NCBI GenBank assembly: GCA_963383645.1
Contig: OY726569.1
Span: 24,969,054-25,033,053 of the forward strand
Direction: 5' to 3'
Length of the DNA: 64,000 nucleotides
Source: Muscardinus avellanarius
Taxonomy: Eukaryota; Chordata; Mammalia; Rodentia; Gliridae
Shown: one piece after another, positions 4,768 to 62,637 of the stretch
Position numbering within the stretch: position 1 is the first letter of the stretch
How the letters are laid out: each line of letters starts with the position of its first letter
Program-made: the position numbers and the translations under genes
Notes under the pieces: generated by a model
Database searches by the model: none
What the model saw: only the letters and a program-made list of their open reading frames with translations
Told to the model about the DNA's origin: nothing

Positions 4768-5961
4768 AGCAGAGAATCTCGCTATTGTGGGTCTTGCTAT
4801 TGTGGCAGTCACAACAAGATCTATTTTTCTTTAATTATTCCCGAGGAACCTTTTGCATTGCTGGGTATTTAAAGCACAAGAGAAGGTAAGAACCCATTTC
4901 TACAAGTGCTCTGTTCCTCAGGGAATGGCAGGAATGAGAGTTTTATTGTGAATAAACAAAACTACAAAACTATCTCATCTGTTGAAGAAATACTTTGAAA
5001 ATAACAGGGGAAAATATAAAATCTCAAAAGGCCATCATGTAAGTAACTAAACAGGAAAACATTGCCTTCATCCAGGATTTTATCTTGACAATAAATATGA
5101 GTTTTGAAACTAAGGGGAAAAAATCTTTAAAATTTACTCTTTGGAACTCATGGCAGGTTGCAAACTGGATTGTCTGATATTTTCAGAAGCCCACTGTCTC
5201 CTGCTTTTTACCCCATGGAGTAATTATTTATTCTCCTCTTGGAAACTTCTCACCACAAACCAATTGAGTGAGTTAAAGTTTTCTACATATATTGCAACTA
5301 GTGCCTGGTGTTTTTGCATCAGTGCTTTCTTCTTGCTCTGAATATGTAAATACTTTATTTGGATAAAATTCAGATACAGAAGCTTAAGAGTACTAATTTT
5401 CCTTTTGCTTCACTAAGTTTGGGGAAATACATTTATCTACTTTTCTTATCCCTTTAAAATGTTAATGAGCATTGTGTACGATGAAGCTTGGGGATTTTGT
5501 GCAAAAATGGCTAGCTCAAATTTCTGGTGGTTGATTTATCATCAATATTATATTAATTTGTTATGTTCTTAATTGTGGAAGAATGGAACATGTTTAATAC
5601 CTGTTTCATATCTTATCTGACTGACCCATGTATTGCTATCAGTTTCACTAGTTCACTATGCTTTGGCTTTATGTGAAATAACCCTTCTTTAGGTAGCAAA
5701 CTCATTTAACATTCCTGTGCTTTTTTTATTGTTGCATTCACATATGATCTTTGGAATGCAACTTTAGAATCCCAAAAAATACTCAAACAGAAGATTCAAG
5801 TAGGGTGAGTATTGCATTTAATTTGATGTATGACTATTGGGTTCCACTATCAGTGTAATAACTAATTAAAGTAGCTGAGAGTATGGTCCTGATGAATTAG
5901 AGCACAGGCCAGAGCAGAAAGGACTAAAATAAAGTGAGTTTTAAAAAATTTAGTCAACTGA
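4768..5961. other. Intergenic, no gene seen
   Basis: AT-rich sequence. The short open frame at 5141-5341 has no family features and no supporting context. Confidence 0.5.
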
Positions 5962-6165
5962 GCAGGGTTTGGTGGTGCACGCTTGTAATCCCAGCATTTG
6001 GGCGGCTGAGACCAGAGGATCTGGATTCACAGACAGCCTTCAACTACTTAGTGAGGCCTAGTGAGACCCTGTTTCAAAATAAAGAATAAAAAACAGGACA
6101 AGGGTTGTAGCTCAGAGCTTGAATGTCCCTGGGTTCCATCCCCAGGCCTGCAAAAAATAAAAAAT
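5962..6165 (+). repeat. B1-dID-type SINE
   Basis: Head 'gagcagggtttggtggtgca', middle 'caactacttagtgaggccta', tail 'gggttccatccccaggcctg' and an A-rich end. Confidence 0.85.
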
Positions 6166-6867
6166 AAAATTCAGTCAATAAGCATTGAGGAAATTGGATG
6201 ACTGTTAAGATTTGTGTGGCTGTTGCTTGAATATTTTTTTTCAGAGAATGCCCCAAAATAATTTGCAAGCACCACACAGGAAGAATATTTTTTAAACATA
6301 TTGTCTCTTATTCCAACCTTAATATTGTTCTACTTTCTCTCTGTTTTTGCATAGAAGCAAAATATTCATGTATAAGTACAATTTAAGTTTTTGATTTGAA
6401 TGCATTCTATTTCTCATTTCTAATACTGTCTGGGAATGGCCAGCATTCACTAGCATCATAGCTTGCTGTCTCCAAATAAAATGCAATGTATTCCTCCTCA
6501 TCTGAGAAAATAGCATACAGTCATTCAGGGTAAAAACATTAACAAGAATTTTGTTTTAATCTTACTGTATGGTCATGACAGATCAAAGGAAGAGCCACAC
6601 TTACCAGACAAATAAAAATAAGCAAGCAAAAAAACCTCATATAACTTAGGAAATGACGGCATCTGCCATACATTGCCACTGCTGTGTGTGACAAAGGGGC
6701 AAAACAAGTAGACTGAGCCATCCAGCTGATTCAGACTCCACACATTCTCAGGGCTCCAAAGACAATGAGATGCATTTGCTCCTTGGTGTCCGCGGGAAGT
6801 TGTTTTCCAGAATGCCTGGTAGATACCAAATCCACAGATGTTCGAACTCCTTTAAAAGAGGTATAGT
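6166..6867. other. Intergenic, with copy 2 of the ~90-bp segment
   Basis: No gene seen. 6522-6612 repeats 3743-3835 ('tcattcagggtaaaaacatt'). Confidence 0.5.
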
Positions 6868-6868
6868 A

Positions 6869-7076
6869 GCCAGGCGTGGTGGTGCACGCTTGTAATCCCA
6901 GCATTCGGGAGGCTGAGACCAGAGGATCACAGTTCGCGGACAGCCTCAGCTACTTAGTGAGGCCCTCTGCAACTCAGACTGGGTTTCAAAATAAAGAATT
7001 TAAAAAAGAAAATAGGGCTGGGAGTGTAGCTCAGAAGTCAAATGCCCCTGGGTTCCATCCCCAGACACGCAAAAAA
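6869..7076 (+). repeat. B1-dID-type SINE with target-site duplication
   Basis: Complete SINE flanked by 'ggtatagta' on both sides (6860-6868 and 7078-7086). This is the signature of L1-mediated insertion. The head keeps 'ccaggcgtggtggtgcacgc', and the tail 'gggttccatccccagacacg'. Confidence 0.9.
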
Positions 7077-7437
7077 GGTATAGTATGTATGTGCATGTAA
7101 CTGCCTCCCTTATTCTTTAAATCATCTCTAAGTGACTTACAATACCTAATACAAAGTAAATGCCCTGCAAGCAGTCGTTCAGGGGATGACAACAACAAAA
7201 GTCCCTGTGTCTAGTACAGATGAATTTGCTTTTCTATTTTCTCTCCACCATTTGTTGAACCCAAAGGTACAAAGAACAGACTATAAACAACAGACCTTCT
7301 TCTTAGATACCAAATGAACCTAAATATATAAAAGTTAAGCTTAATTTCAGCAACAAAAAACTGAAAGCTGGTAAAGTAAATATTACAAACTTTAATGTTG
7401 TCTCAACAGAAAAAAAAGGCATGGTATAAAAAAAAGC
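7077..7437. other. Intergenic, no gene seen
   Basis: AT-rich, with no repeat that I recognise. Confidence 0.45.
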
Positions 7438-7637
7438 AGCTAGGTCTGGTGGCACACATCTGTAATCTCAGTACTTGAGAGGCTGAAACAAGTGGATCAA
7501 CGGTTCAGGGCCAGCCTCAGCAACTTAGCAAGGTCCCTTGGCAACTTAGCAAGACCTGTTTCAAAATAAAAAATACAATAGGACTCAAGGTATAGCTTGG
7601 AGGTAGAATGCCCCTAGGTTCAACCTTCAGTACCAAA
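7438..7637 (+). repeat. B1-dID-type SINE
   Basis: Head 'tctggtggcacacatctgta'. The middle carries both 'caacttagcaaggtccc' and 'caacttagcaagacctg', and the tail is of ID type. Confidence 0.85.
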
Positions 7638-7698
7638 AAGGCGAAATTATATACAAAACACTAAGTACAGAAATCAGTTATTAAGAAGACAATATGGA

Positions 7699-7699
7699 A

Positions 7700-7742
<43 letters not shown>
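7699..7742. repeat. (CA)n microsatellite with one interruption
   Basis: About 20 CA units with one 'aaaca' interruption near 7727. Confidence 0.95.
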
Positions 7743-8538
7743 ACTTCTGTTCACTCTATGGTGATTTTACAACAAATATGTGCACATTAAATAACCAGGT
7801 TACTCAGAAAAATCTTTCTCGAAGGTCACTTACCCCAAGTGACGTATTGTACTTTCATATTCACAGGGCAAAGGAATCAAGATTTTCAAACTGAGAATTA
7901 TAGGTGCAAAAGTGTGTCACTCTTTCCCCATCCCCATGTGGAGCTGAAATAAGTAGACTAGACCAAGAGGAAAATGCATTTTAAGTACCGAACATGACTC
8001 GGTTATAGTCATATAAAAATCATATTATACCGGACCCAGACAGGTCTAATTATTATATAACACCATGAGAAAACACAGAGAGAAATATGCCCTGTTCCAC
8101 TTCTTGTATTACCATGAGAGAGGACCTTTGGACATGTCTTGATATGAATAGCACTTCACGTCATATCATTGTCCATTTTACCGATTATAATAAATTACTT
8201 TATATGCTATTGTGTTTTTATATGTTACTTTAAAAAGAGCATCACATACACTGGCTTTTACGTCCTGTATGTACCTGCATGGTAGACACACAGTGACATA
8301 CCCAAACAGAGTAGAGCAACTTATTAAAATTACAGACTGCACCCCATACCCTGACATGTTTTCCACAACTATGTATTCTATTTCTATATCTATTTTTATC
8401 TTGATGAAAAAAATAATGCCCTTGAGGAATAGATTGTGGACATCACTGTCGTATTGCCTTTAACAGAAATTTTGTTATTCATTACTTTATCAAAAACAAT
8501 GATAAAGAAATTTGGCATTTCCAGGAAAAGCCAGCATT
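7743..8538. other. 5' flank of the first OR gene
   Basis: AT-rich flank that should contain the intron and any non-coding 5' exon of the receptor. No promoter motif stands out clearly enough to call. Confidence 0.4.
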
Positions 8539-8549
8539 CTACATTACAG
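8539..8549 (+). other. Putative 3' splice site of first OR gene
   Basis: 'tctacattacag' ends 23 bases before the ATG at 8573. This is the usual position for joining a non-coding 5' exon to an OR coding exon. The polypyrimidine tract is weak. Confidence 0.45.
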
Positions 8550-8572
8550 TGGGATCATCTTTGCCATCTCCA

Positions 8573-9547
8573 ATGCCTTCCACGACAAAGAATGTGTCCA
8601 GCAAAGAAAGCACAATGTCCATCAGCCACTTTATCCTCCTGGGTTTTCCCTCAAGCCCCCAAATGCAGCTCCTCTACTTCGGGCTCTTCTCAGTCACCTA
8701 CACTCTGACGCTGATGGGAAACGTAGCCATCGCCTGCGCGGTGAGGGGAGACCGGCGCCTCCACACCCCCATGTACATCTTCCTGGCAAATTTCTCTCTC
8801 CTGGAAATATGCTATGTCACCACCACGGTCCCCAACATGTTGGCCAACTTCCTCTCCACGAGCAAGTCCATCCCTTTCGTGAGTTGTTTCGCGCAGTTCT
8901 ACTTCTTCTTCTCCTTTGGGTGTGATGAGGGCTTCTACCTTTGCATCATGGCCTTCGACGGGTACCTGGCTATCTGCCGTCCTCTGCATTATCCACGAAT
9001 CATGACCAGACAGCTGTGCACTGGCCTCGTCATCTTCGGGTGGTTGGGTGGCCTCATTATCTTTGTAATTCCAGTTTTTCTCATTTCACGGCTACCCTAT
9101 TGTGGCCCAAATATCATCAACCATTTTGTGTGCGATCCTGTCCCACTGATGATGCTCTCCTGTTCCGAAGACGCCACCACCCAGTCCATTTACTCTGCCT
9201 TCAATGCTATCTTCATGGTCGGCACTTTCCTCTTTATCCTTTGTTCCTACGCCCTGGTGATTCTGGCCGTGCTGCGCATGCCCTCGGCAGCCAGCAAACA
9301 CAAGGCTTTCGTGACTTGTGCCTCTCATTTGACGGTCGTCACCCTGTTTTATGGTTCTATTATGGTGATGTATGTAAGCCCTGGCTCAGGACACACAGAG
9401 AAAAAGCAAAAAGTCATTACCTTGTTTTATTCTGTGATAACACCTCTATGCAATCCCCTAATATATAGCCTGAGGAACAAGGAGATGAAGGCTGCCCTCA
9501 GGAAAGTCTTTGTTCCTGAAATATTGTTCCTAAAATATAAATCATGA
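8573..9547 (+). CDS. Olfactory receptor, OR family 11-like, with DGY in place of DRY
   Basis: A 324-residue class II odorant receptor, a seven-helix G-protein-coupled receptor of olfactory neuron cilia that couples to G-olf. The start at 8573 is chosen because it keeps an N-glycosylation site (N7-V-S). The frame stays open to 8549 only by a GTG codon, and a second ATG at 8615 would lose the glycan site. Landmarks in order: GN at 49-50 (helix 1), LHTPMY at 63-68, the helix-3 motif MAFDGYLAIC at 126-135, extracellular-loop-2 cysteines, KHKAFVTCASHL at 242-253 (helix 6), and NPLIYSLRN at 294-302 (helix 7). Oddity: DRY reads DGY, with codon ggg at 8960-8962 where Arg is nearly always found. The rest of the frame is intact. 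Family 11 is assigned from the FILLGFP, LANFSLLEICYV and RPLHYP signatures. The subfamily is uncertain (K- or G/H-like). The C-terminus runs into a short repeat. Confidence 0.93.
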   Translation: MPSTTKNVSSKESTMSISHFILLGFPSSPQMQLLYFGLFSVTYTLTLMGNVAIACAVRGDRRLHTPMYIFLANFSLLEICYVTTTVPNMLANFLSTSKSIPFVSCFAQFYFFFSFGCDEGFYLCIMAFDGYLAICRPLHYPRIMTRQLCTGLVIFGWLGGLIIFVIPVFLISRLPYCGPNIINHFVCDPVPLMMLSCSEDATTQSIYSAFNAIFMVGTFLFILCSYALVILAVLRMPSAASKHKAFVTCASHLTVVTLFYGSIMVMYVSPGSGHTEKKQKVITLFYSVITPLCNPLIYSLRNKEMKAALRKVFVPEILFLKYKS

Positions 9548-11624: not shown

Positions 11625-11640
11625 CACAGCTATTTTTTAA

Positions 11641-11968
11641 TTTATTTTTATTGGTGCATTGTAATCATATATCACATTGGAATATAAGACTTGATATACA
11701 AGCACACATCATCCAATTAGCCCTCATCCACTCCCCATCCCATTCCCTCCCCCTCTCTTGATCCCATGCTTGTTTGGTGATTAATTTTGATACATTTGTT
11801 TATGTACCTCCTGAGTTTTAAAGAGGCACCATCCTCCCCTATTCCATACCCTCTGATTGGTCACCTTAATTGCTTCGCTATAGGGCCCTTTTTATAACTC
11901 GACCTCTTCCTGTTGCCCCTTTCCTCCTAGTTATTGCTGATTAGGGGAAGCATCTGGTTTTTATTTTC
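11641..11968 (-). mobile_element. L1 3' UTR-like tail of the composite element
   Basis: Collinear with the 3' ends at 10206-10437 and 34127-34460. Shared blocks include 'attggtgcattgtaatcata' and 'tccaattagccctcatccac'. Similarity stops just before the ORF2 stop region of the longer L1, so only the 3' UTR was captured. Confidence 0.75.
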
Positions 11969-11999
11969 TGTGATATTTCTCTGTGCATGCCGCATTGCA

Positions 12000-12878
12000 A
12001 GTACCGACCCCACTCTTGACGACCCCAGTAGTGGCCTGGCTACCCGGTGGACTGATCCAGACCTCTGGCTCAAGCAGCAGCCTTGCCTCATGGGAGGCCC
12101 TGATTCTGGTCTTGCTGGTCCCCACACTGGCCTAACCCCTTGGCTGGCTCCGATCCCGGCCTCAGTGGCCCCAGCACTGGCCTAGCCTCAAGGCAGACTC
12201 CATCCCAGCCTCAGTGACCCTGGCACAGGCCTAACCCCTCAACAAACTCCTATCCTGGCCTCAGAGTCCCCAGCACCGGCCTTGCCTCATGGCAGGTTCC
12301 AATCCCAGCCTCACTAGCCCCGGTACTGGCCTAACCCCTTGGCAGGCTCCGATCCTGGTCTCAGAGGCCTCAGTAGTGGCCTTGCCTCAAGGCAGGCTCC
12401 AATGCCGGCCGCTGGCCCCATCACCACCCTAACGTTTCGGCAGGCTCCGATCCTGGCCTCAGAGGCCCCAGCACCGGCCTTGCCTCTAGATAGGCTCCAG
12501 TGCCGGCCGCTGGCCCCAGCATCGGCCTACCCCTTGGCTGGCTCTGATCCGGGCCTCGGAGGCCTAAGTAGTGGCTGTGCCTCATGGTAGGCTCTGATCC
12601 CGGCCTCGCTGGCCCCGGCACCAGCCTTACCCCTCGGCAGGCTCCAATCTAGGCCTTGAGGGCCCCAGCACCGGCCTTGCCTCACGGAAGACTCTGATCC
12701 AGGCCTTGCTGGTCCCAGAACCAGCCTATCCCCTCGGCAGGCTCGGATCCTGGCCTCGGAGGCCTCAGTAGCAGCCTTTCCTCAAGGCAGGCTCTGATAC
12801 TGACTGCTGGCCCCGGCACCGCCCTACCCCTTGGCAAGCTCCGATCCCGGCCTCGGAGGCCCCAGCCCAGCCTTTCCT
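12000..12878. repeat. CpG-rich VNTR, part 1 (50-bp half-units, 100-bp dimers)
   Basis: Two related 50-bp half-units alternate. One carries 'cggcctcggaggccccagca' and ends 'ccttgcctcac'. The other carries 'cagcctcgctggccccggca' and ends 'cctaacccctc'. Both begin 'ggcaggctccgatccc'. Some units are shortened or rearranged, for example the 'ccggccgctggcccc' type near 12400 and 12500. Many CpGs have decayed to CA or TG. About 17 half-units are present. Confidence 0.9.
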
Positions 12879-13858
12879 TGTTAGGGTCCGAGAGTCGCCC
12901 CCTTACCCAAATAACCAAGGACACACCAAGGTTGCAAATCACAAGCAGAGTTTATTGTGCTGCAGCTCTTACTGGCAAGCCAGTGGTTGAAACTCCTTCA
13001 CTAGCTTGACTGTCAGTAGAGGAATTGCCCAGCAGCTACCAGAGGGAGCCTCTGGCCGAGCTAGAGTTCAGCCTCAGTAGACAGCAAGGAAAGTGGTCAG
13101 AGCTCGACCCAGAGCTCACTTCAGGGTCCAAATTTATAGCCCCAGAAGGGAGTGGTTACACATGTCATGGCCCGCCAAAATTAGGATACAACCAATCAAA
13201 TAAGAAGGTAAACAAGTACAACCAATGATTTTAAAAGCAAGCACACACACACTTGAATCACAGCAAATGGTTTTAAAGGACAGCCTTTCTACATCACCGC
13301 CTGCCAAGGAATGACTATCTCCCTCATGCAGGGTATGTGCTCGGTTACCCTGGTAACCTCTAGCCTGGGCTATGAACCGCCAGATGTTTGCTTGCAGATA
13401 AGACTGTAGCAGGCTCAGAACTCATTTCCAAGAAAACTAGCTTTATGTTCTAAAACATGTTTTAAAATACATCAGAAATATTTCAAACTTTAAAGAAACG
13501 GCTCTTTAGCATCAAGACAAGAATCTTAAAAGACAGGTTTAACCTTAAAACAATTCTTAACAGCAAACCAGGCTCTTAAATTAAAACAACTTTTAACATT
13601 AAAGTAAATGGGGCATAAGCAAGCAGTTTTACAGAAGCCAGAACTTGAGCAGGCAGTTATCAGAAGCAGGAACTTACAAGTTTATTCTAACTAAATTCTA
13701 AATCCAAACATCTTAATTCTCAAAATCAACTCTTAACATTACTAACATTACTCCAACTTAATTCTATATCTTAACTCTATATCCTAATATCTTAATTCTA
13801 TAAGGGGAGAGGGATTTCCCTAACTTAATTCTATAAAGGGAGGGGGATTTCTTTCACA
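12879..13858 (-). mobile_element. Solo retroviral LTR inside the VNTR, minus strand
   Basis: A 980-bp non-repetitive block with TG...CA ends, splitting the VNTR. On the minus strand it has LTR order: a U3-like region, a TATA box (complement at 13133-13138), and AATAAA (complement at 12951-12956) before about 70 bp of U5-like sequence. No primer-binding site, gag, pol or env follows, so it is a solo LTR. I could not see a clear target-site duplication in the flanking VNTR units. The family is unassigned. Confidence 0.7.
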
Positions 13859-13868
13859 GTACTCTTAT

Positions 13869-14640
13869 AGCCTAACGGCAGGCTCCAATCCCAACCTTGC
13901 TGACCCCGGCACCAGCCTACTCCTTTAGCAGGCTCCGATCCCAGCCTCGGAGGCCCCAACACCAGCCTTGCCTCATGGCAGGCTCCGATCCTGGCCTCGC
14001 TGGCCCCGGCACCGGCCTACCCTCTCAGCAAACTCCGATCCCGGCCTCGGAGGCCTTAGTAGCAGCCGTGCCTAATGGAAGGCTCCAATCCTGGCCTTAC
14101 TGGCCCCAACACCAGCCTTACCTTCGACAGGCTCCAATCCAGGCCTCAGAGGCCTCAGTCATGGCTTTGCCTCAAGGCAGACTTTGATCCTGGCCACTGG
14201 CCCCGGCACTGGCCTAACCCCTCGGCAGGCTCCAATCCAGGCCTCAGAGGCCCCAGCACTGGCCTTGCCTCATGACAGGCTCCGTTCCCGGCCTCGCTGG
14301 CCTGGGCACTGACCTAACCCCTTGGCAGGCTCCAATCCCAGCCTCGGAGGCCCTAGTAGCGGCCCTGCATCACGGCAGGCTCCGATCCCAGCCTCGCTGG
14401 CCCCGGCACCGGCCTAACCCCTCGGCAGGCTCTGATCCCGGCCTCGGAGGCCTCAGCACTGGCCTTACCTCACGGCAGGCTCTGATCCCAGCTTCGCTGG
14501 CCCAAGCACCGGCCTAAAACCTCGGCAGGCTCCGATTCCAGCCTCAGAGGCTCCAGCACCGGCCTTGCCTCACAGCAGGCTCCGATCCCAGCTTTGTTGT
14601 CTCTGTCGTCGGCCTCACCCCTCAGCAGGCTCCAATCTGA
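13869..14640. repeat. CpG-rich VNTR, part 2
   Basis: The same 50-bp half-units as part 1, about 15 of them, more regular than part 1 and mostly in strict alternation. It continues the array interrupted by the LTR. Confidence 0.9.
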
Positions 14641-14654
14641 GCACCCTCTTTGCC

Positions 14655-15190
14655 CAGCCATTTGTCCCACATTCTCGAGGATGCATGGTGGTAGCATTCT
14701 GCCTCTGGGGTTATTACTTTAAAAGTTCCAGGTGTAATACATCAGATCTCTGCCTTCCCTGAGTACTGGCCACTGCCATTGCCACTGCCTCCACCATTTC
14801 AAATCTTTCCCAAGCTCTTTTTCCACTCTGAATGTTGTCCAGTGTTCCTAAGCATGCACGACAGTAGCATTCAACGTTTGGTGTAATTTCTCCAAAGAAT
14901 AAGGTTGGTAGGATCAGATTTCTGCCTCTCCTGAATACAAGTCTCCACCACCATCGCGGAGACCACTTCCAACACCACCTTCCTCCTAGGTCTCCGCTAA
15001 ACTCGCTCCCTACAGGTGATGTCCAAGATTCTTAAGAATGTAGAGAAGAAGCAGTCCTCCTTCGCAGGGACTTTTTCCAAAAGTTCCAGTTCATTTGGAT
15101 AAGTTTGTCTGCATCTCCAGTATCCTGGCATCTGCCATGGCCTTCTTGACCCCTCTCCGATATTTTTCTTATTTCTTTTTTCTTTTTCTT
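14655..15190. repeat. Three degenerate ~180-bp tandem repeats
   Basis: Units start near 14662, 14835 and 15019 with a shared opening (t/a)tgtcc followed by a 'ttc..aag/gatg' block. The first two share 'agtagcattc' and a 'gatc.g.tttctgcct' block. Spacings are about 173 and 184 bp. Identity is modest. Confidence 0.6.
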
Positions 15191-15275
15191 TTTCTTATTC
15201 TCTTCCCTTTTTTTTAAATAAGAGAAGATAGTATGTGTGGTTTGAGGAGGTTGTGGAATCAGGCACTCAGTAGCA

Positions 15276-15448
15276 CTGTGACCCGGGCCCGGTTTCCCCA
15301 GGGGTCCAGCATGCTCCACACGACTCCTCTCAGGGCCCAGAGTTCTGCGACCCAGGCCCCGGCTCTTCCAGGGGTCCGGCGAGCCCTGCCTGACCCCCGC
15401 CCAGGGCCCAGGGCCTTGCGACCAGGCTCCGGTTTCTCCAGGGGTGTC
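15276..15448. repeat. ~70-bp GC-rich tandem repeat, 2.5 copies
   Basis: Units start at 15276, 15345 and 15416 (spacings 69 and 71). Each opens with (t)g(c/t)gaccc.ggc.ccgg and contains 'ccaggggtcc'. This is the 5' end of the composite element on its sense strand. It abuts the right target-site duplication directly. Confidence 0.8.
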
Positions 15449-15484
15449 CACAGCTATTTTTTAATACAGAAAAGTTAAGATAGA

Positions 15485-21709: not shown

Positions 21710-22648
21710 TCAAAATAACACAGGTAGAAATGTCTTCAGGGCTTCTTTCATATCTTTGTTCCGGAAGTTGTAGATAATAGGATTAAAGAATGGAGTGGCT
21801 AAAGCATAGAACAAGGTCACAAATTTCTGCATCCCATGATAGTCCCCAGAGCCTGGGCTAACATACATCACCATGACTGAGCCATAGAACAGAGACACCA
21901 CAGCAAGGTGAGAGGCACACGTTGAGAAAGCCTTGTGCCTTCCCAAGCCCGAGGGCATCTGTAATACTGTGCTCAGGACACAGAAGTAAGTGCCAAGAAT
22001 GTACAGGAAGGTAAGAAAGATGATGAGTGAGCTAATGATACCACAGGTCAAAGTTGTTCCTGATACTGGAGCACAGGACAATGCCAGCAAAGGTGCCAGG
22101 TCACAGAGAAAATGGTCAATGGTGTTTGGTCCACAGAAGGGCAACTGAGAGATCAGGCTCAAAGGAGTCAGTAACCAGAGGAAGCCACCCACCCAGCAGA
22201 AGATCACTAACTGAGCACATAGTTTATGGGTCATGATGGATGGATAGTGCAAAGGTCTACAGATGGCAAGAAATCGATCAAAAGACATCACTGACAGAAA
22301 TAAGCCCTCTGCAGCACACATGGAAAAGAAGAAGTAGAACTGGAGCAGGCAGCCTGCATAGGAGATGCTCTTGTTTTGGGATATGAGGTTGGCCAACAGT
22401 TTGGGCACATCAGAGCTGACATAGCAGACCTCCAGGAAGGAGAAGTTGGCCAGGAGGATGTACATGGGTGTGTGGAGCTTCCGGCTGCACCACACCGCAC
22501 AGATGATGGATGTGTTCCCCAGGAGGGTCAGCATGTAGATGAGGGAGAAGATCACAAAGAGGAGAATCTGGATCTCCTGGCGGCAGGGGAAGCCCAGGAG
22601 GATGAACTCAGTCACAGATGCAGAGCTATTTGTCTCTGAGGCCCTCAT
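21710..22648 (-). CDS. Olfactory receptor, OR family 11 (G/H-like)
   Basis: A 312-residue class II odorant receptor on the minus strand, intact from an ATG at 22648. N-glycosylation site N7-S-S, then TEFILLGFPC. GN at 44-45, LHTPMYILLANFSFLE from 58, helix-3 motif SFDRFLAIC at 122-130 (DRF, a tolerated variant of DRY), LPFCGPNTIDHFLCD in extracellular loop 2 (169-183), HKAFSTCASHL at 238-248 and NPIIYNFRN at 289-297 (YNF where most receptors have YSL). Length is normal for the family. It shares CRxEIQILLF and the SSDVP/NSDVP loop with the gene at 57701, so those two are probably the closest pair. It is the only receptor here on the minus strand. As with other ORs it should signal odour binding through G-olf. 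The ligand is unknown. Confidence 0.95.
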   Translation of the reverse strand: MRASETNSSASVTEFILLGFPCRQEIQILLFVIFSLIYMLTLLGNTSIICAVWCSRKLHTPMYILLANFSFLEVCYVSSDVPKLLANLISQNKSISYAGCLLQFYFFFSMCAAEGLFLSVMSFDRFLAICRPLHYPSIMTHKLCAQLVIFCWVGGFLWLLTPLSLISQLPFCGPNTIDHFLCDLAPLLALSCAPVSGTTLTCGIISSLIIFLTFLYILGTYFCVLSTVLQMPSGLGRHKAFSTCASHLAVVSLFYGSVMVMYVSPGSGDYHGMQKFVTLFYALATPFFNPIIYNFRNKDMKEALKTFLPVLF

Positions 22649-22657
22649 TATTCTGAC

Positions 22658-22671
22658 CTGTTGAGGTAAAG
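22658..22671 (-). other. Putative 3' splice site of second OR gene
   Basis: On the minus strand 'tctttacctcaacag' ends 9 bases before the ATG, with a fair pyrimidine tract. This fits a non-coding upstream exon joined to the coding exon. Confidence 0.55.
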
Positions 22672-23985
22672 AAGATAGTGAGAACTAGAGAAATACACTT
22701 TTTCTTCATTCTGGGGAAGAGATATATGTGCTCTCAATTTGATTTAGTCATATTATCATCTTCCTCTTGTAAGTTTGAGCTCTTCTTTATTGTTTTCTCA
22801 ACAAACATTTATTTGCACATTTTATCGTCAGTCATTGTTTTAAGACATAAGAACAATGAATACAATAAGCAAAATCTCTGACCTTAAGGAGCTTATGTCA
22901 AATATCTTCTATTCAAAACAACCTCAAACTTTATAATGTGTCTGCAGAATTTATATATAGAAGTAGCTGAGGAATTGGATTTGTTTGGAAGATATATGAG
23001 ATTAGTCTTAGAACATAATTTACTTAAAAGGACACTGTTTTTACTTAGACTGCATGATAATTGGTGGTAATTTCATGGTGTAACATGATACAGATTATGG
23101 GAGAGATTTTAACTTCCCTCCACCTTTATTGTGGTATTGCCACTAACACAGTGACAAACTATTATGGCAAAAACAAGTTTTTGATGTTATCTGAGATATA
23201 AATGTTACATTCATTTGGAAAAAGTAACAGATTTGGGGGTGATAAATCAGCTTTTGCAAAGAAATAATTTCCAAAGACAATGATGGAGGGAAACATTTCT
23301 AGTTTATGATAACATAGGAAATTGTTTGGGCATATACACAAAAATGAATATGTTTAAATAACAGTCTAAAGGAATAAATACAAGACCACTTGCAGGACAA
23401 TTGTCCAAAGACAAGACCACATGGCCTAAGACAAACCACGAATCTAAGTATTTTAAGATGTTTCGCTAGCTGAGAATAAAACTAGAGTTGAATTAATGAA
23501 AGATTATTAAAGCATTGTGGAAATAGCATTTTTCAAACATGGTTTTTTACAGGCTGATTAAATTAACAGAAAATAACCTAAAAACCATTTTAATAGTCCA
23601 AAGGAAAAGTGTGAAGAACTTGACATGGGATAACATACATGCAAACAGAACAGTGTTAGATTCAGAAAATATGTGAAATAGAAACCTATTTTCCCCTCTT
23701 TACAATCCAAGTGGTTGTTAAGTGGCCCCAAGGGACAGGAGAATAGAATAAGGCAAAAAAGCATGATTTCACTTTCCATTCCCCACAGATTTTACTGGGA
23801 CACCTCACAGAAGGAGAGTACCACCCCACACAGCAGCCCCACTCTGAAGACAGTTCACACTCTTGCCTTAGGCTATCTCCCAGATACCAGGTTATGTCCA
23901 GTTCATTATCTTATTTTACTCTGAATATTACATTTTATTAAATAAATTACCTACTATTTGCAAAGTTCTTTCTTATACAAGTTAC
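22672..23985. other. 5' flank of the second OR gene
   Basis: No gene seen. Any promoter and 5' exon of the minus-strand receptor would lie here or farther right. Confidence 0.4.
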
Positions 23986-40118: not shown

Positions 40119-40642
40119 TTGTTTTCATTGTCCATATTCAATAAAAAGGGGTAGAGACAAATTTTAAACTATGTAAGCATTCTGAATCCAGTGTTAGCCT
40201 GTTTTGCTCTACAGCTCTTTTTATGTATATTATTCTGAGAATGGGATTAAATTATACATAACACTACTTTTAAAGTTAGTTGGAAACATTAAATTATTGT
40301 TTTCCTATTCTTTCTTCATGCTGGTAATAGCAAATTATCACACCACTACTAATGGAAACATAAGTCTCCATGTCTATCATAAAAGTGACAATTCTTAGCC
40401 ACCCAAGTACTTTGGTACCATGTAGTTTTTACCGTAAGTTAGATGCTAAGATCTATCAGAGCTTTATCAGTTTAAATTTGTTTGACACTTTTCCACCATG
40501 AGCATTTTATATGGCACTCAGGCTGACCAAATACCCAGAAGTCTATCAGACCTATATCAACCTCTCAGGCCCTCCCTTGCTAGTCTCTGAATAACCATGA
40601 TTACAGCTATAGCCTCGCTAGGGCAAGCACGTCCTCCTAGGC
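40119..40642. other. Intergenic, no gene seen
   Basis: No gene or named repeat recognised. Confidence 0.45.
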
Positions 40643-41620
40643 CCCAGTGTGCGGTGCATGAGGCCGAGCACGCTGGCGCTGGGCAGCCTCCATGGCTGGA
40701 GGTCTCAATCCCCGGCCATGAAGGCCCCAGAGGTGGTGCAGCTCCGGGAGGAGCAGGAAAAGATGGTAACTAACTGCCAAGAGAAAATCCAGCATTGGAA
40801 GAAAGTAGATAATGACTATAATGCCCTTCAAGAAAGACTCAGTGCTTCACCTGTTAAGTTGTCTTACAATATGATACCACTTGGCCCCTGTGCCTTCATG
40901 CCAGGAAAACTTGTTTATTCTAATGAAGTCACTGTTTTACTTGGGGACAACTGGTTTGCAAAGTGATCAGCAAACCAGGCCATAGGTTTAGTTGAGCACT
41001 GGAAAGAACATGTAAGAGAAACAATAGATGATTTTTTAGAAGTAATTAAAAATTTTGAATTCAAAGTTGAAGTCAGAAGATTTGCAGAGAATGAGTAATG
41101 TTGCAGGTGATATTGTTGACATAAGAGAAGAAATTAAAAATGACTTTGAATTTAAGGCTAAAGAATGAATTGCTCATAAACCTCATTCTAAACCAAAAGC
41201 ATTAGACATTTTTTTTGTAAATGAAGTAAAATCTAAGGATTTGCTTGCTGATGAGAAACTGGGCTTGTCTTGAAGAACTAGAGAGACAAGAAGAATTGCT
41301 GGGTGAACTTGATAGTAAACCTGATACCATGGTTGCAAATGGAGAAGATACAGACTCTTCTGAAGAGGAAGAGGAAGATCAAAACACAGATGTAAGCCAA
41401 GCATCATGGGAAGGAGGGATGGGGAGAGAATGGGGTGTGGGATCAGGTAGGGGCTAACTAGGCCATGTGTGCATGTATGTCTACACAAGTTTTTTTTTAT
41501 CCCATTAAGATGTATGAATACAGTGCACCAATAAAAAATTTTTTAAAAAAACACACAGATGTAAACGTGAGGCATCAAGAAGCAGCCTGTGTTACTCCCA
41601 GCAGTTGTCAGAAGTGTACC
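40643..41620 (+). pseudogene. URI1 processed pseudogene, 5' part, split by L1 insertion
   Basis: An intron-free copy of the N-terminal part of URI1, the unconventional prefoldin that binds RNA polymerase subunit RPB5. Recognisable blocks: REEQEKMVTNCQEKIQHWKK and VDNDYNALQERLS (prefoldin-like helix), FMPGKLVYSNEVTVLLGDNW, then DIVDIREEI, IAHKPHSKPK, LEELERQEELLGELDSKPDT and the acidic SSEEEEEDQNTD. It is broken by a TGA at 40964 (Cys codon in the parent), a frameshift near 41080, a TGA in the 'aaagaatga' near 41168, and another stop and shift near 41272. A 157-bp L1 3' end inserted at 41396. Similarity to URI1 fades after about 41600, so the acidic middle and the C-terminus are missing. The lack of introns marks it as retrotransposed mRNA. 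The functional parent is not in this window. Confidence 0.88.
41396..41552 (+). mobile_element. L1 3' end inserted in the URI1 pseudogene
   Basis: Flanked by 'acacagatgtaa' at 41384-41395 and 41553-41564. The insert ends with the local L1 terminus 'gtgcaccaataaaaaatttt' and an A-rich tail. The pseudogene frame (NTDV, then NVRHQ) resumes after the second copy of the duplication. Confidence 0.9.
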
Positions 41621-41965
41621 AGTATTGGGAAATGGCTTCAAAATGTTTTTGAAAATAGCTTTGGTATTAATGTGCTGGTATTGGGAAATGGTTTTAAAAT
41701 GTATTTAAAAATAACTTTGGTATTAGAAAGCCAGAAGCTTGAGTGTGGGCAGAAATTCAGACAGGGAAGAGATCCTGCAGAATTTCAGACACCAAGAGTG
41801 ATTAGCAAGAAAATCGAGGAAGCCCAGGGTCTTTTACATTTCTAAGACAAGCAAACGCCCAAGGATGTGTAGGGGAAGCCACTCAACCAGCAGGCAGACA
41901 CAAGGGTTCCACAGATGATTTTCCTAGTAATTATGATGGGGTAATGTAGTGGACAGCAGATGGTA

Positions 41966-57689: not shown

Positions 57690-57700
57690 GATAAAAAGAA

Positions 57701-58642
57701 ATGACCTCAAAAGCCAGAAATACCTCCTATATGGTAAGTGATTTCATCCTCTTGGGCTTCCCTTGTCGCTGGGAAATACAGATCTTGCTTTTCTCCATAT
57801 TCTTTGTGACTTACATCCTGACCCTGCTGGGAAACATGGCCATCGTGTGTGCAGTACGCTGGGACCACCGGCTACACACCCCCATGTACATTCTGCTGGC
57901 CAACTTCTCCTTCCTAGAGATATGCTATGTCAACTCGGACGTGCCCAACATGCTGGTCAACTTCCTCTCCAGGACCAAAACCATCTCCTTTTCTCAGTGC
58001 CTCCTCCAGCTGTACTTCTTTTTCTCACTGGGCACGACCGAATGCCTGTTTCTCTCCATCATGGCCTATGACAGGTTTCTGGCCATCTGCCGCCCCCTGC
58101 ACTACCCCACTGTCATGACCACTAAGTTCTGCAGTACCCTCGTCATCTTTTGCTGGGTCTATGGTTTCCTCTGGTTCCTGATTCCAGTAATTCTCATCAC
58201 CCAGCTGCCATTTTGTGGCCCAAATGTAATCGATGACTTTCTGTGTGACCTGGGCCCCCTGCTGGCCCTGGCTTCAGCCTGCGTCCCAATCCCAGGGACT
58301 GTTCTCATATGTGGCACCATGAGCTCCCTCCTCATATTTGCCACCTTCTTCTACATCATTGGTTCCTACACCCTGGTGCTGAGGGCAGTGATACAGGTAC
58401 CCTCTGCTGCTGGCCGGAAGAAAGCCTTCTCCACCTGTTCCTCACACCTGGCTGTCGTATTTTTGTTCTATGGCTCTGTCATGATGACATACGTGAGTCC
58501 AGGGTCAGGACAAGCAGAGGGCATGCAGAAGTTTACAACTTTGTTCTACTCAGTGTTGACCCCCTTTTTCAACCCCATGATCTACAGCCTCCGGAATAAA
58601 GAAATGAAGGATGCCTTGAAGAAAGTCTTAGGAGGTTCCTGA
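57701..58642 (+). CDS. Olfactory receptor, OR family 11 (G/H-like)
   Basis: A 313-residue intact class II odorant receptor. N-glycosylation site N7-T-S, DFILLGFPCRWEIQILLF from 14, GN at 44-45, LHTPMYILLANFSFLEICYV at 58-77, helix-3 motif AYDRFLAIC at 122-130, LPFCGPNVIDDFLCD in loop 2 (169-183), KKAFSTCSSHL at 240-250, YVSPGSG at 264-270 and NPMIYSLRN at 291-299. All helices are present and the length is standard. The first in-frame ATG follows a splice acceptor by 11 bases, so the start is secure. It lies about 3 kb upstream of the fourth receptor on the same strand, as a tandem duplicate. AATAAA signals near 59016 and 59046 could end its 3' UTR. The ligand is unknown. Subfamily G is somewhat favoured over H because of FPC and ILLANFSFLE. 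Confidence 0.96.
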   Translation: MTSKARNTSYMVSDFILLGFPCRWEIQILLFSIFFVTYILTLLGNMAIVCAVRWDHRLHTPMYILLANFSFLEICYVNSDVPNMLVNFLSRTKTISFSQCLLQLYFFFSLGTTECLFLSIMAYDRFLAICRPLHYPTVMTTKFCSTLVIFCWVYGFLWFLIPVILITQLPFCGPNVIDDFLCDLGPLLALASACVPIPGTVLICGTMSSLLIFATFFYIIGSYTLVLRAVIQVPSAAGRKKAFSTCSSHLAVVFLFYGSVMMTYVSPGSGQAEGMQKFTTLFYSVLTPFFNPMIYSLRNKEMKDALKKVLGGS

Positions 58643-61245: not shown

Positions 61246-61665
61246 AATAATATTTCTCAAAATAATAAGTGATGAAGGAAACAGTCCAAATAATGCTAGA
61301 AAACTTTTATTAAAAGTTTCTGAGATTAAATTCTGTACTTACATTTACTTAAATAAACATTATCACTCCATTATTTTTTGTTTGGTTCCCAAAATATGAC
61401 TGTATTTCATAAATAGAAGGCAACCAGAAGATTAATTGACAACTTAACACCAAACTACCGGCAGCTGAATCTTAAGGCCATTTCACTGGATTTATTTTTT
61501 CTCTAACACAATAGAGTCAGAATTCACAGTATGATCAAAAAATCTCTCTCAAAGTATGATCCTTTTTTGCAACATAGGTTATTATCTAACAAAGACTGAG
61601 AAATTTAGGATGTCCAAAAATTATTCCAGAGAATTAGGAAATAAGGCCAACTGTGTCATTGTCAT
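61246..61665. other. 5' flank of the fourth OR gene
   Basis: AT-rich, with no promoter called. Confidence 0.4.
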
Positions 61666-61686
61666 CTCTCCTTTTCTACTCCACAG
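61666..61686 (+). other. Putative 3' splice site of fourth OR gene
   Basis: A strong pyrimidine tract 'ctctccttttctactccaca' plus G ends 6 bases before the ATG. It is the best acceptor of the four receptors. Confidence 0.7.
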
Positions 61687-61692
61687 GAAGCC

Positions 61693-62637
61693 ATGAATGT
61701 GTCAGGAGTCAACAGAGTGACTGAATTCATCCTCCTGAGTTTTCCCTGCTCCAGAGAGGTTCAGACCTTCCTCTTCATACTGTTCTTTGTGTCCTACATC
61801 ATGACGCTGATGGGAAATGGGGCTGTGGTCTGTGCAGTGATGCTGGACCACCGGCTTCACATCCCCATGTACCTCCTGCTGGCCAGCTTCTCATTCCTGG
61901 AGATCTGTTACATCAATACCACTGTTCCCAACATGTTACAAAATTTCCTGTCCAAGACAAAAGCCATCTCTTTCACAGCTTGCTTCCTCCAGTTCTACTT
62001 CTTCTTTTCCTTGGGTACCACTGAGACCTTCTTGTTGCCCCTAATGGCCTTTGATAGATACTTGGCCATCTGCCTACCTCTCCACTATCCTACCATCATG
62101 AGCAATCATCTCTGCATGAAGCTGGTGGTCCTCTGCTGGGTGATAGCCTTCCTCTGCTATCCCATCCCTATCTATTTTATGACACAGCTTCCCTTTTGTG
62201 GCCCCAATACCATTGACCACTTTGTCTGTGACCCCGGTCCTCTTTTGGCCCTGTCCTGCATTCCTGCACCTGGAATTAAAATCTCCTGTTCTTTATTGAG
62301 CTCATTTATCATCTTCATCACCTTACTCTTCATCCTCGCATCGTATGCCCTGGTTCTCAGAGCAGTGTTCCGAGTCCCTTCAGCAGCTGGCAGGTGGAAG
62401 GCCTTCTCCACCTGTGGTTCCCATCTAGTTGTGGTGTCTCTGTTCTATGGAACCATTATGGTGATGTACATTAGCCCAAACTCTGGAAATCCAGCTGGGA
62501 CACAGAAGATTGTAACCTTGATCTATTCATCAGTGACCCCACTATTAAACCCACTGATTTACAGTTTCAGGAACAAAGACGTGAAGGCTGCCTTGAGAAA
62601 AATACAGATGTGCACAAAATGTAGTCAAAATCAATGA
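61693..62637 (+). CDS. Olfactory receptor, OR family 11 (G/H-like)
   Basis: A 314-residue intact class II odorant receptor. N-glycosylation sites N2-V-S and, in extracellular loop 1, N75-T-T. TEFILLSFPCSREVQ from 10, GN at 41-42, LHIPMYLLLASFSFLEICYI at 55-74 (Ile for the usual Thr in LHTPMY), helix-3 motif AFDRYLAICLPLHYP at 119-133 with a classical DRY, LPFCGPNTIDHFVCD in loop 2 (166-180), WKAFSTCGSHL at 235-245, and NPLIYSFRN at 286-294. The cysteine-containing tail CTKCSQNQ is longer than in its tandem neighbour and resembles the extended tails of OR11H-type receptors. The start is secure: first ATG after a strong acceptor. It is expected to act in olfactory cilia through G-olf. The ligand is unknown. 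Confidence 0.96.
   Translation: MNVSGVNRVTEFILLSFPCSREVQTFLFILFFVSYIMTLMGNGAVVCAVMLDHRLHIPMYLLLASFSFLEICYINTTVPNMLQNFLSKTKAISFTACFLQFYFFFSLGTTETFLLPLMAFDRYLAICLPLHYPTIMSNHLCMKLVVLCWVIAFLCYPIPIYFMTQLPFCGPNTIDHFVCDPGPLLALSCIPAPGIKISCSLLSSFIIFITLLFILASYALVLRAVFRVPSAAGRWKAFSTCGSHLVVVSLFYGTIMVMYISPNSGNPAGTQKIVTLIYSSVTPLLNPLIYSFRNKDVKAALRKIQMCTKCSQNQ

Follow-up and report, generated by a model that had tools for sequence, protein, structure and literature searches.

What does a GC-rich block of tandem repeats that ends in a piece of long interspersed element 1 (LINE-1, or L1) represent: one damaged L1, or one copy of a mobile family built from several parts? The question is raised by a stretch of 64,000 nucleotides from the hazel dormouse, Muscardinus avellanarius (contig OY726569.1, positions 24,969,054 to 25,033,053; this whole stretch is called the window here), in which such a block lies between two copies of a short direct repeat. 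We are highly confident that the block belongs, as a single copy, to a large non-autonomous retrotransposon family of the hazel dormouse, a composite built around a variable number tandem repeat (VNTR), copied by L1 and assembled stepwise. The order of the parts, their presence at many loci, the flanking duplications, the target sites, the lack of open reading frames (ORFs) and the structural variants were all observed in the copies examined. The original prediction, made from the letters alone, had likened the block to the primate SVA and gibbon LAVA elements, in a rodent and with different parts, and in this it was supported; the host is a rodent, as it supposed, of the Gliridae and not a squirrel (Sciuridae).

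The evidence for a family comes from searches of the 2.497-Gb hazel dormouse assembly, on whose contig C12 the window lies; all samples were chosen by similarity or taken from the head of a list. With the 5′ part of the element as query, 5,983 first-look candidates were obtained and 40 were scored, among which 39 non-self places had 89 to 91% identity along the whole query or most of it. From these 39 the best 20 were fetched with their flanks, and all 20 carry the parts in the same order—70-bp GC-rich repeats, degenerate monomers of about 180 to 190 bp, a VNTR of 50/100-bp units and an L1-type 3′ end—in elements 1.7 to 3.2 kb long, with a VNTR of 0.34 to 1.86 kb and with copy numbers of both the 70-bp repeats and the VNTR that vary among copies. 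No ORF1 or ORF2 match lies inside any of the 20, such matches in the fetched stretches falling outside the composites. Neither a want of other loci with this order nor the presence of ORF1 and ORF2 in the other copies, the two outcomes named beforehand as decisive against the comparison with SVA, was encountered among these loci. When four ORF2 fragments and one ORF1 served as queries, the end of ORF2 (longer in two loci, L078 and L081, described below) gave the only match inside the examined composites, and the ORF1 query gave none inside 21 young copies, seven older loci, L078, L080 and L081.

The size of the family can be gauged from a 28-base pattern spanning the junction of VNTR and L1, which has 5,450 + 5,608 = 11,058 matches in the genome at no more than 2 mismatches, compared with 0 for the reversed pattern. 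Because this pattern is partly L1-derived, 20 of 100 listed places (all exact matches and all on contig C1) were inspected: by blastn the VNTR lies upstream in 19 of the 20 and ORF2 in none, and the remaining one, L076, seems to break off shortly inside the end of the VNTR. Two loci showed peculiarities of arrangement. At L034 (C9:27155944-27156594) the junction segment appears doubled within one composite, and L022 holds two composites in the same orientation about 2.2 kb apart (897-2866 and 5117-8540), apparently of different subfamilies.

The copies bear the marks of L1-type target-primed reverse transcription. Exact flanking duplications of at least 12 bp were found in 13 of 21 young copies, compared with 12 of 420 controls in which the 5′ side of one copy was paired with the 3′ side of another, and a TT/(at least 3 A of 4) site stands at the 5′ edge, within a slide of −2 to +3, in 9 of these 13 copies (a rule that 507 of 10,500 random flank sites satisfy). 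All 21 copies have AATAAA near the 3′ end and 50 to 77% A around it, their 5′ ends stop at differing points within the 70-bp array, and one nested copy, L023, interrupts an L1 ORF2. The duplications and target sites tell how the copies were inserted and not which proteins inserted them; for L1 as the presumed agent they are, with the A-rich tails, indirect signs. The mean non-CpG divergence from the column majority, window copy included, is 3.1% in the monomers and 3.0% in the tail, with pairwise values of 3 to 10%. At an assumed substitution rate of 2–3e-9 per site and year, a divergence of about 3% would place the young copies at roughly 10 to 15 million years, an age that applies to a sample biased by its selection for similarity to the window copy.

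Within the window, the parts of the element are those given in Table 1. The bracketing repeat is exact, as had been claimed, and 17 bp long instead of 16 (CACAGCTATTTTTTAAT; ATTAAAAAATAGCTGTG in the sense of the element), and the insertion site, read before as TT/AAAAAA, is TT/AAAAAATAGCTGTG in sense, a site of the L1 endonuclease type. Also upheld were the 70-bp GC-rich repeats (three 24-nt cores at 15282, 15352 and 15422, spaced by exactly 70), the CpG-rich VNTR, in which Tandem Repeats Finder (TRF) reports periods of 50/100 in two stretches (CpG observed/expected 0.47, compared with 0.04 to 0.09 in the flanks; GC about 65%), and the L1 3′ untranslated region (UTR) of the tail, which matches L1 copies carrying ORF2. 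Other claims stood in part. The repeats of about 180 bp are clear as arrays of about 190 bp in related copies and weak in the window copy, where three 22-nt pieces are 73 to 77% alike to one, at spacings of 157 and 254, and where the TRF rows of the window contain no period of about 180 bp. A stretch of about 990 bp that splits the VNTR had been missed; we consider it a private later insertion because none of the 20 related loci fetched first has a match to it; as a candidate clean long terminal repeat (LTR) element this stretch was rejected, no TG..CA ends with a 4–6-bp duplication having been found. The statement that no L1 protein region is visible holds for ORF1 and ORF2 matches, none of which lie inside, and fails for the last ~13 codons of ORF2 with their stop, which are present. 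The L1 homology starts at tail position 41 to 43 in the ORF2-bearing L1s of L014, L021 and L023 and at position 44 against the L1 with open ORFs discussed below, and the junction segment just before it is whole in 39 of 40 scored tail matches (self included) and complete but for 3 bases in the remaining one. The window copy is probably truncated at its 5′ end, given that many related copies have extra 70-bp units upstream and variable 5′ ends.

Table 1. Parts of the composite element in the window (positions are those of the window; the rows follow the sense of the element)
Feature	Position	Strand	Remarks
Composite element, whole block between the two target-site duplication copies	15448->11641 (sense)	-	
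Target-site duplication, 5′ side of the element	15449..15465	-	exact 17-bp repeat
70-bp GC-rich repeats, ~2.5 units, 5′ end	15276..15448	-	spacing 70; borders approximate
Linker and A-rich stretch	15150..15275	-	first part (to ~15210) common to the older subfamily
Degenerate monomers of ~180-190 bp	14640..15150	-	weak here; arrays in L024/L055, L052, L054, L049
VNTR, first half, 50/100-bp units	13870..14640	-	TRF period 50/100 at 13870-14637
Insertion of ~990 bp splitting the VNTR	12880..13868	.	unclassified; without match in 20/20 related loci
VNTR, second half	12015..12879	-	TRF period 50/100 at 12114-12878
VNTR end/junction segment just before the L1 part	11974..12015	-	tail matches
Last ~13-15 codons and stop of L1 ORF2	11927..11973	-	comparison with ORF2-bearing L1s
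L1-type 3′UTR ending in CACCAATAAAAATAAATTAAAAAA	11641..11926	-	match to L1 copies carrying ORF2; AATAAA near the end
Target-site duplication, 3′ side of the element	11625..11641	-	exact 17-bp repeat

An older subfamily suggests how such an element may have been put together. A search with an older tail taken from L024 gave 5,428 candidates, and the 600 bp upstream were inspected for the best 20 of 39 non-self scored places: all 20 tails are preceded by the VNTR and none by ORF2. Seven older loci were fetched with about 5 kb, L055 being the same copy as in L024; L049, L052, L054 and L055 reach the monomer array, and L050, L051 and L053 hold only VNTR and tail. The older arrays consist of units of about 190 bp with motifs such as CCAAGATGGCGG, of a type that recalls the start of mammalian L1 5′UTRs, and L052, L054 and L055, which match sense positions 171 to 241 of the window element, begin with an AAGATGG(T/C)GGC-type start resembling the L1 5′ end. 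Before and after the monomer array lie two segments whose translation we recognized as what we take to be the N terminus of CACNA2D3. Since L052, L054 and L055 share a short interspersed element (SINE), identical in its position and in its internal deletion, and L049 lacks it, the SINE was probably inserted into a master copy and then copied along. In the young lineage, where the exon-like segment was not seen, the 5′ end bearing it is replaced by the 70-bp repeats, with the short linker, the monomers, the VNTR and the tail kept.

Three further loci differ from both subfamilies. L078, on a contig whose length is that of the X chromosome, starts with CTGGCCAAGATGGCGGCAGCC and contains, in order, both exon segments (identities of 72 and 69%), a single monomer, about 130 bp that read as a few VNTR-like units, a segment of about 225 bp, an ORF2 piece (E 9e-8, with 30.8% of residues identical to the query) and the 3′UTR. 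L080 aligns with L078 over 846-1492 and matches the VNTR over about 190 bp, and L081 has the ~225-bp segment of L078 but joins ORF2 further on, so that L078 and L081 keep differing, longer 3′ pieces of ORF2. These two loci look like ancestral-type copies, and the path seems to lead from a short VNTR with more of ORF2 to a long VNTR with almost none, if we have its direction right. The ~225-bp segment (L078 1445-1670, L081 ~260-500) reads open like a coding exon; as a second captured exon it was rejected, with no Pfam and no PDB match, as was a MAAAVV..HFQP frame, which has no Pfam match and one PDB match at E 0.8.

For comparison with dormouse L1 itself, one L1 with an open ORF2 frame was read in two stretches (C13:14322469; L056 and L057). 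Its ORF1 is a 322-amino-acid (aa) frame with L1 ORF1 domains, and an array of 22-bp GC-rich repeats lies before it (L056 2183-2534). At E ≤ 1e-3, L056 has no match to the 70-bp repeats, the monomers or the VNTR, and L057 has one 22-nt A-rich match to the monomers. The 3′ end of this L1 matches the old composite tail at 84 and 78% in two blocks. Between the end of its ORF2 and the conserved end of the 3′UTR it has about 620 extra bp (L057 187-930), which separate both tail-matching blocks. Because its 5′UTR is unrelated and the tail is matched only in part, the composite is, as far as these sequences go, not a deleted form of this L1. The idea that the monomers serve as the 5′UTR of a present-day L1 was likewise left unsupported by this one L1 with open ORFs in its two stretches. 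An ORF2 frame open over 1278 aa was found at about 39 of the 150 L1 places scored, with a search score of 265.2 in nearly every case; L1 is therefore probably active in the hazel dormouse today and a possible source of the machinery.

A tentative alternative, which we regard as somewhat doubtful, is that the monomers and the CACNA2D3 exon once formed the 5′UTR of an L1 lineage, and that the composite is the internally deleted offspring of this lineage and not a fusion of unrelated transcripts. This account concerns the origin of the family and is compatible with our explanation of its present-day members. The L1-like start of the three old full-length copies and the differing, longer ORF2 pieces of the ancestral-looking L078 and L081 argue for it, whereas the 22-bp repeats in the unrelated 5′UTR of the L1 we read and the lack of any ORF1 match inside the searched composites (21 young copies, seven older ones, L078, L080 and L081) argue against it. 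The original prediction had itself allowed for an L1 lineage that lost its ORFs; this finds no support in the one L1 read, but may hold for the deep origin, since a longer piece of ORF2 is preserved in the ancestral-looking L078.

The older copies look as if they carry two copies of CACNA2D3 exon 1. Our query was a CACNA2D3 protein sequence chosen after the segment had been read, and it matches both segments in L052, L054 and L055 and only the second in the truncated L049 (E 6e-15 to 1e-7), with E-values of 4e-25 in L078 and 6e-15 in L054; one further weak match has E 0.5, and a shuffled-protein control gave 0 hits. Because the query also matches alpha-2/delta-1 chains of PDB (at E 3e-5 and weaker), it belongs to the right gene family. 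A genome search with it (5,040 candidates, 150 scored) listed CACNA2D3-like segments at more than 100 places with 55 to 81% identity, as well as residues 68 to 108 at 95% identity at C18:28370026-28370148, flanked by splice signals, which we take as host exon 2, with residue 69 as its first. The captured segments mostly stop at residues 68 to 72, where this exon begins, some alignments reaching 77 to 84. It is quite improbable that the resemblance is due to chance or to a paralogue and that the segment does not come from CACNA2D3: the choice of the query after the segment had been read, host exon 1 not having been identified among the 150 scored places, and two PDB searches with translated composite pieces that gave no convincing match would fit such an account, but the E-values, the empty control and the agreement between the segment ends and an exon found at 95% with the same query speak against it.

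Two simpler explanations fare far worse. That a single internal deletion of an ordinary L1 produced the block at this locus would account for its L1 tail and its duplication, but is hardly credible in view of the same ORF-free order in 20 of 20 fetched loci, the VNTR before 20 of 20 older tails, the 11,058 junction matches and a 5′UTR not shared with the L1 we read. Spread of a GC-rich satellite or segmental duplication by recombination at the DNA level, without retrotransposition, would suit the variable copy numbers of the VNTR and the 70-bp repeats and is just as implausible given the locus-specific duplications, L1-type target sites, AATAAA signals, A-rich 3′ ends and variable 5′ ends.

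Several observations nevertheless weigh against a family copied by L1 and assembled in the steps proposed here. No exact duplication of at least 12 bp was found in 8 of the 21 copies: L023 and L011 have imperfect ones (19 bp, 2 mismatches, and 12 bp, 1 mismatch, respectively), L019 has an A-rich imperfect match, and the examined flanks of L014, L018, L020, L021 and L027 showed no clear duplication. One of the 13, L024, owes its place to an A-rich exact match of 12 bp that could be due to chance, a duplication of 19 bp with 2 mismatches being likelier in this copy. The old full-length copies yielded no clear duplication, their candidates being short or of low complexity (13 bp in L055) and left uncounted. 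By blastn at E ≤ 1e-5, the window VNTR has no counterpart in the short VNTR of L078. The 3′ end of the L1 we read matches the young tail in two blocks only (88% over 34 bp and 76% over 142 bp), so that an L1 sharing the composite tail was not found. Finally, the young subfamily looks inactive now, its copies lying about 3% from the column majority outside CpG and the least diverged of the sampled tails, that of L025, having a best non-self match of 97%.

On balance, we propose the following mechanism for the composite family. A putative internal promoter at the 5′ end would drive an RNA without ORFs that ends in the L1-type 3′UTR and an A-rich tail, and dormouse L1 proteins would copy this RNA at TT/AAAA-like sites by target-primed reverse transcription, which would produce 5′-truncated copies and duplications of about 12 to 19 bp. 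Assembly would have been stepwise, in an order that we reconstruct as follows: (i) an L1-like, YY1-type start was joined with ~190-bp monomers; (ii) a host exon, CACNA2D3 exon 1, was captured twice; (iii) the VNTR grew from a few units to dozens; (iv) one lineage gained a SINE; (v) the L1 end was trimmed to ~13 ORF2 codons; and (vi) the young lineage may have swapped the exon-bearing 5′ end for the 70-bp GC repeats.

The VNTR composites described in PMC4432496 are SVA, LAVA, PVA and FVA, hominoid-specific elements with a precursor, SVA2, in macaque and a shared 5′ CT-hexamer/Alu-like region; PMC7353768, in its abstract, likewise calls SVA and LAVA specific to hominoid primates. Units of 30-50 bp in a central GC-rich VNTR characterize the hominoid composites. 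Like SVA (SINE-R-VNTR-Alu), the dormouse element is non-autonomous, has a central GC-rich VNTR of ~50-bp units and a 3′ part from another retroelement, shows L1-type duplications and exists in thousands of copies. It differs in its rodent host and in its 3′ part, an L1 end where SVA has SINE-R, and its 11,058 junction matches compare with approximately 6,000 SVA copies in human according to PMC13174262, whose VNTR passages concern SVA. No two adjacent exact CCCTCT (or AGAGGG) units occur in any of the 21 young copies, and of the four old loci L054 alone has such a run, of two units, at position 16 and outside the element; by eye, with no Alu search made, the elements begin with 70-bp repeats or an AAGATGG-type start and none has an Alu-like part. 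LAVA (L1-Alu-VNTR-Alu, of gibbons) is also a VNTR composite with L1 sequence in its 3′ part, but that part consists of AluSz and L1ME fragments with unique sequence in the description of PMC4432496, whereas in the dormouse an L1 3′ end follows immediately on the VNTR, and the 5′ parts differ. PVA (PTGR2-VNTR-Alu, also of gibbons) shares the presence of a host-gene exon; the PTGR2 piece forms its 3′ part according to the same paper, whereas in the dormouse the CACNA2D3-like exon stands on the 5′ side of the VNTR and, in the older copies, occurs twice. Hazel dormouse LINE-1, for its part, has an ORF2 end and 3′UTR homologous to those of the composite, which differs in lacking ORF1 and ORF2 beyond its end and in being unrelated to the 22-bp-repeat 5′UTR of the L1 we read. 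Judged by its parts, the dormouse element works like SVA and is not a member of the hominoid group, having no hexamer part and a rodent host, and the best reading is an L1-dependent VNTR-composite retrotransposon independent of SVA and LAVA, with transcription and L1 dependence presumed. The literature searched contained only primate VNTR composites and no rodent one, with Dfam, Repbase and most subscription papers outside the search; an unnamed repeat-library entry for the dormouse composite may exist already. Two patterns had 0 matches in IMG/VR, and the 70-bp repeats together with the monomers had 0 in phage records, neither of which was expected to hold the composite.

It is likely that VNTR composites evolved anew outside primates: in the dormouse line, an L1-type 3′ end would have acquired an expanding VNTR and a CACNA2D3 exon captured twice, and the resulting element would have reached more than 11,000 copies. 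If this is true, a VNTR is probably a repeatable solution for parasitizing L1 and not an accident of SVA, because such composites arose twice. A second independent case would separate what is essential (the VNTR, a non-coding body and a usable 3′ end) from what is accidental (the Alu-like part and SINE-R), and, being built from different parts, would make the role of the VNTR testable by comparison. For this, one genome offers an apparent series that runs from a very short VNTR with more of ORF2 to a long VNTR with almost none.

Elsewhere in the window, four stop-to-stop frames of 315 to 373 aa read by eye as olfactory receptors (8426-9547 and, on the same strand, 57695-58642 and 61645-62637, all +; 21710-22684, −), and a receptor cluster seems to surround the window. 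On the + strand, 40622-41845 is presumably, by its appearance, a URI1 processed pseudogene, interrupted by a short L1 3′ end at 41405-41537. A perfect tandem duplication of 57 bp lies at 904-1019.

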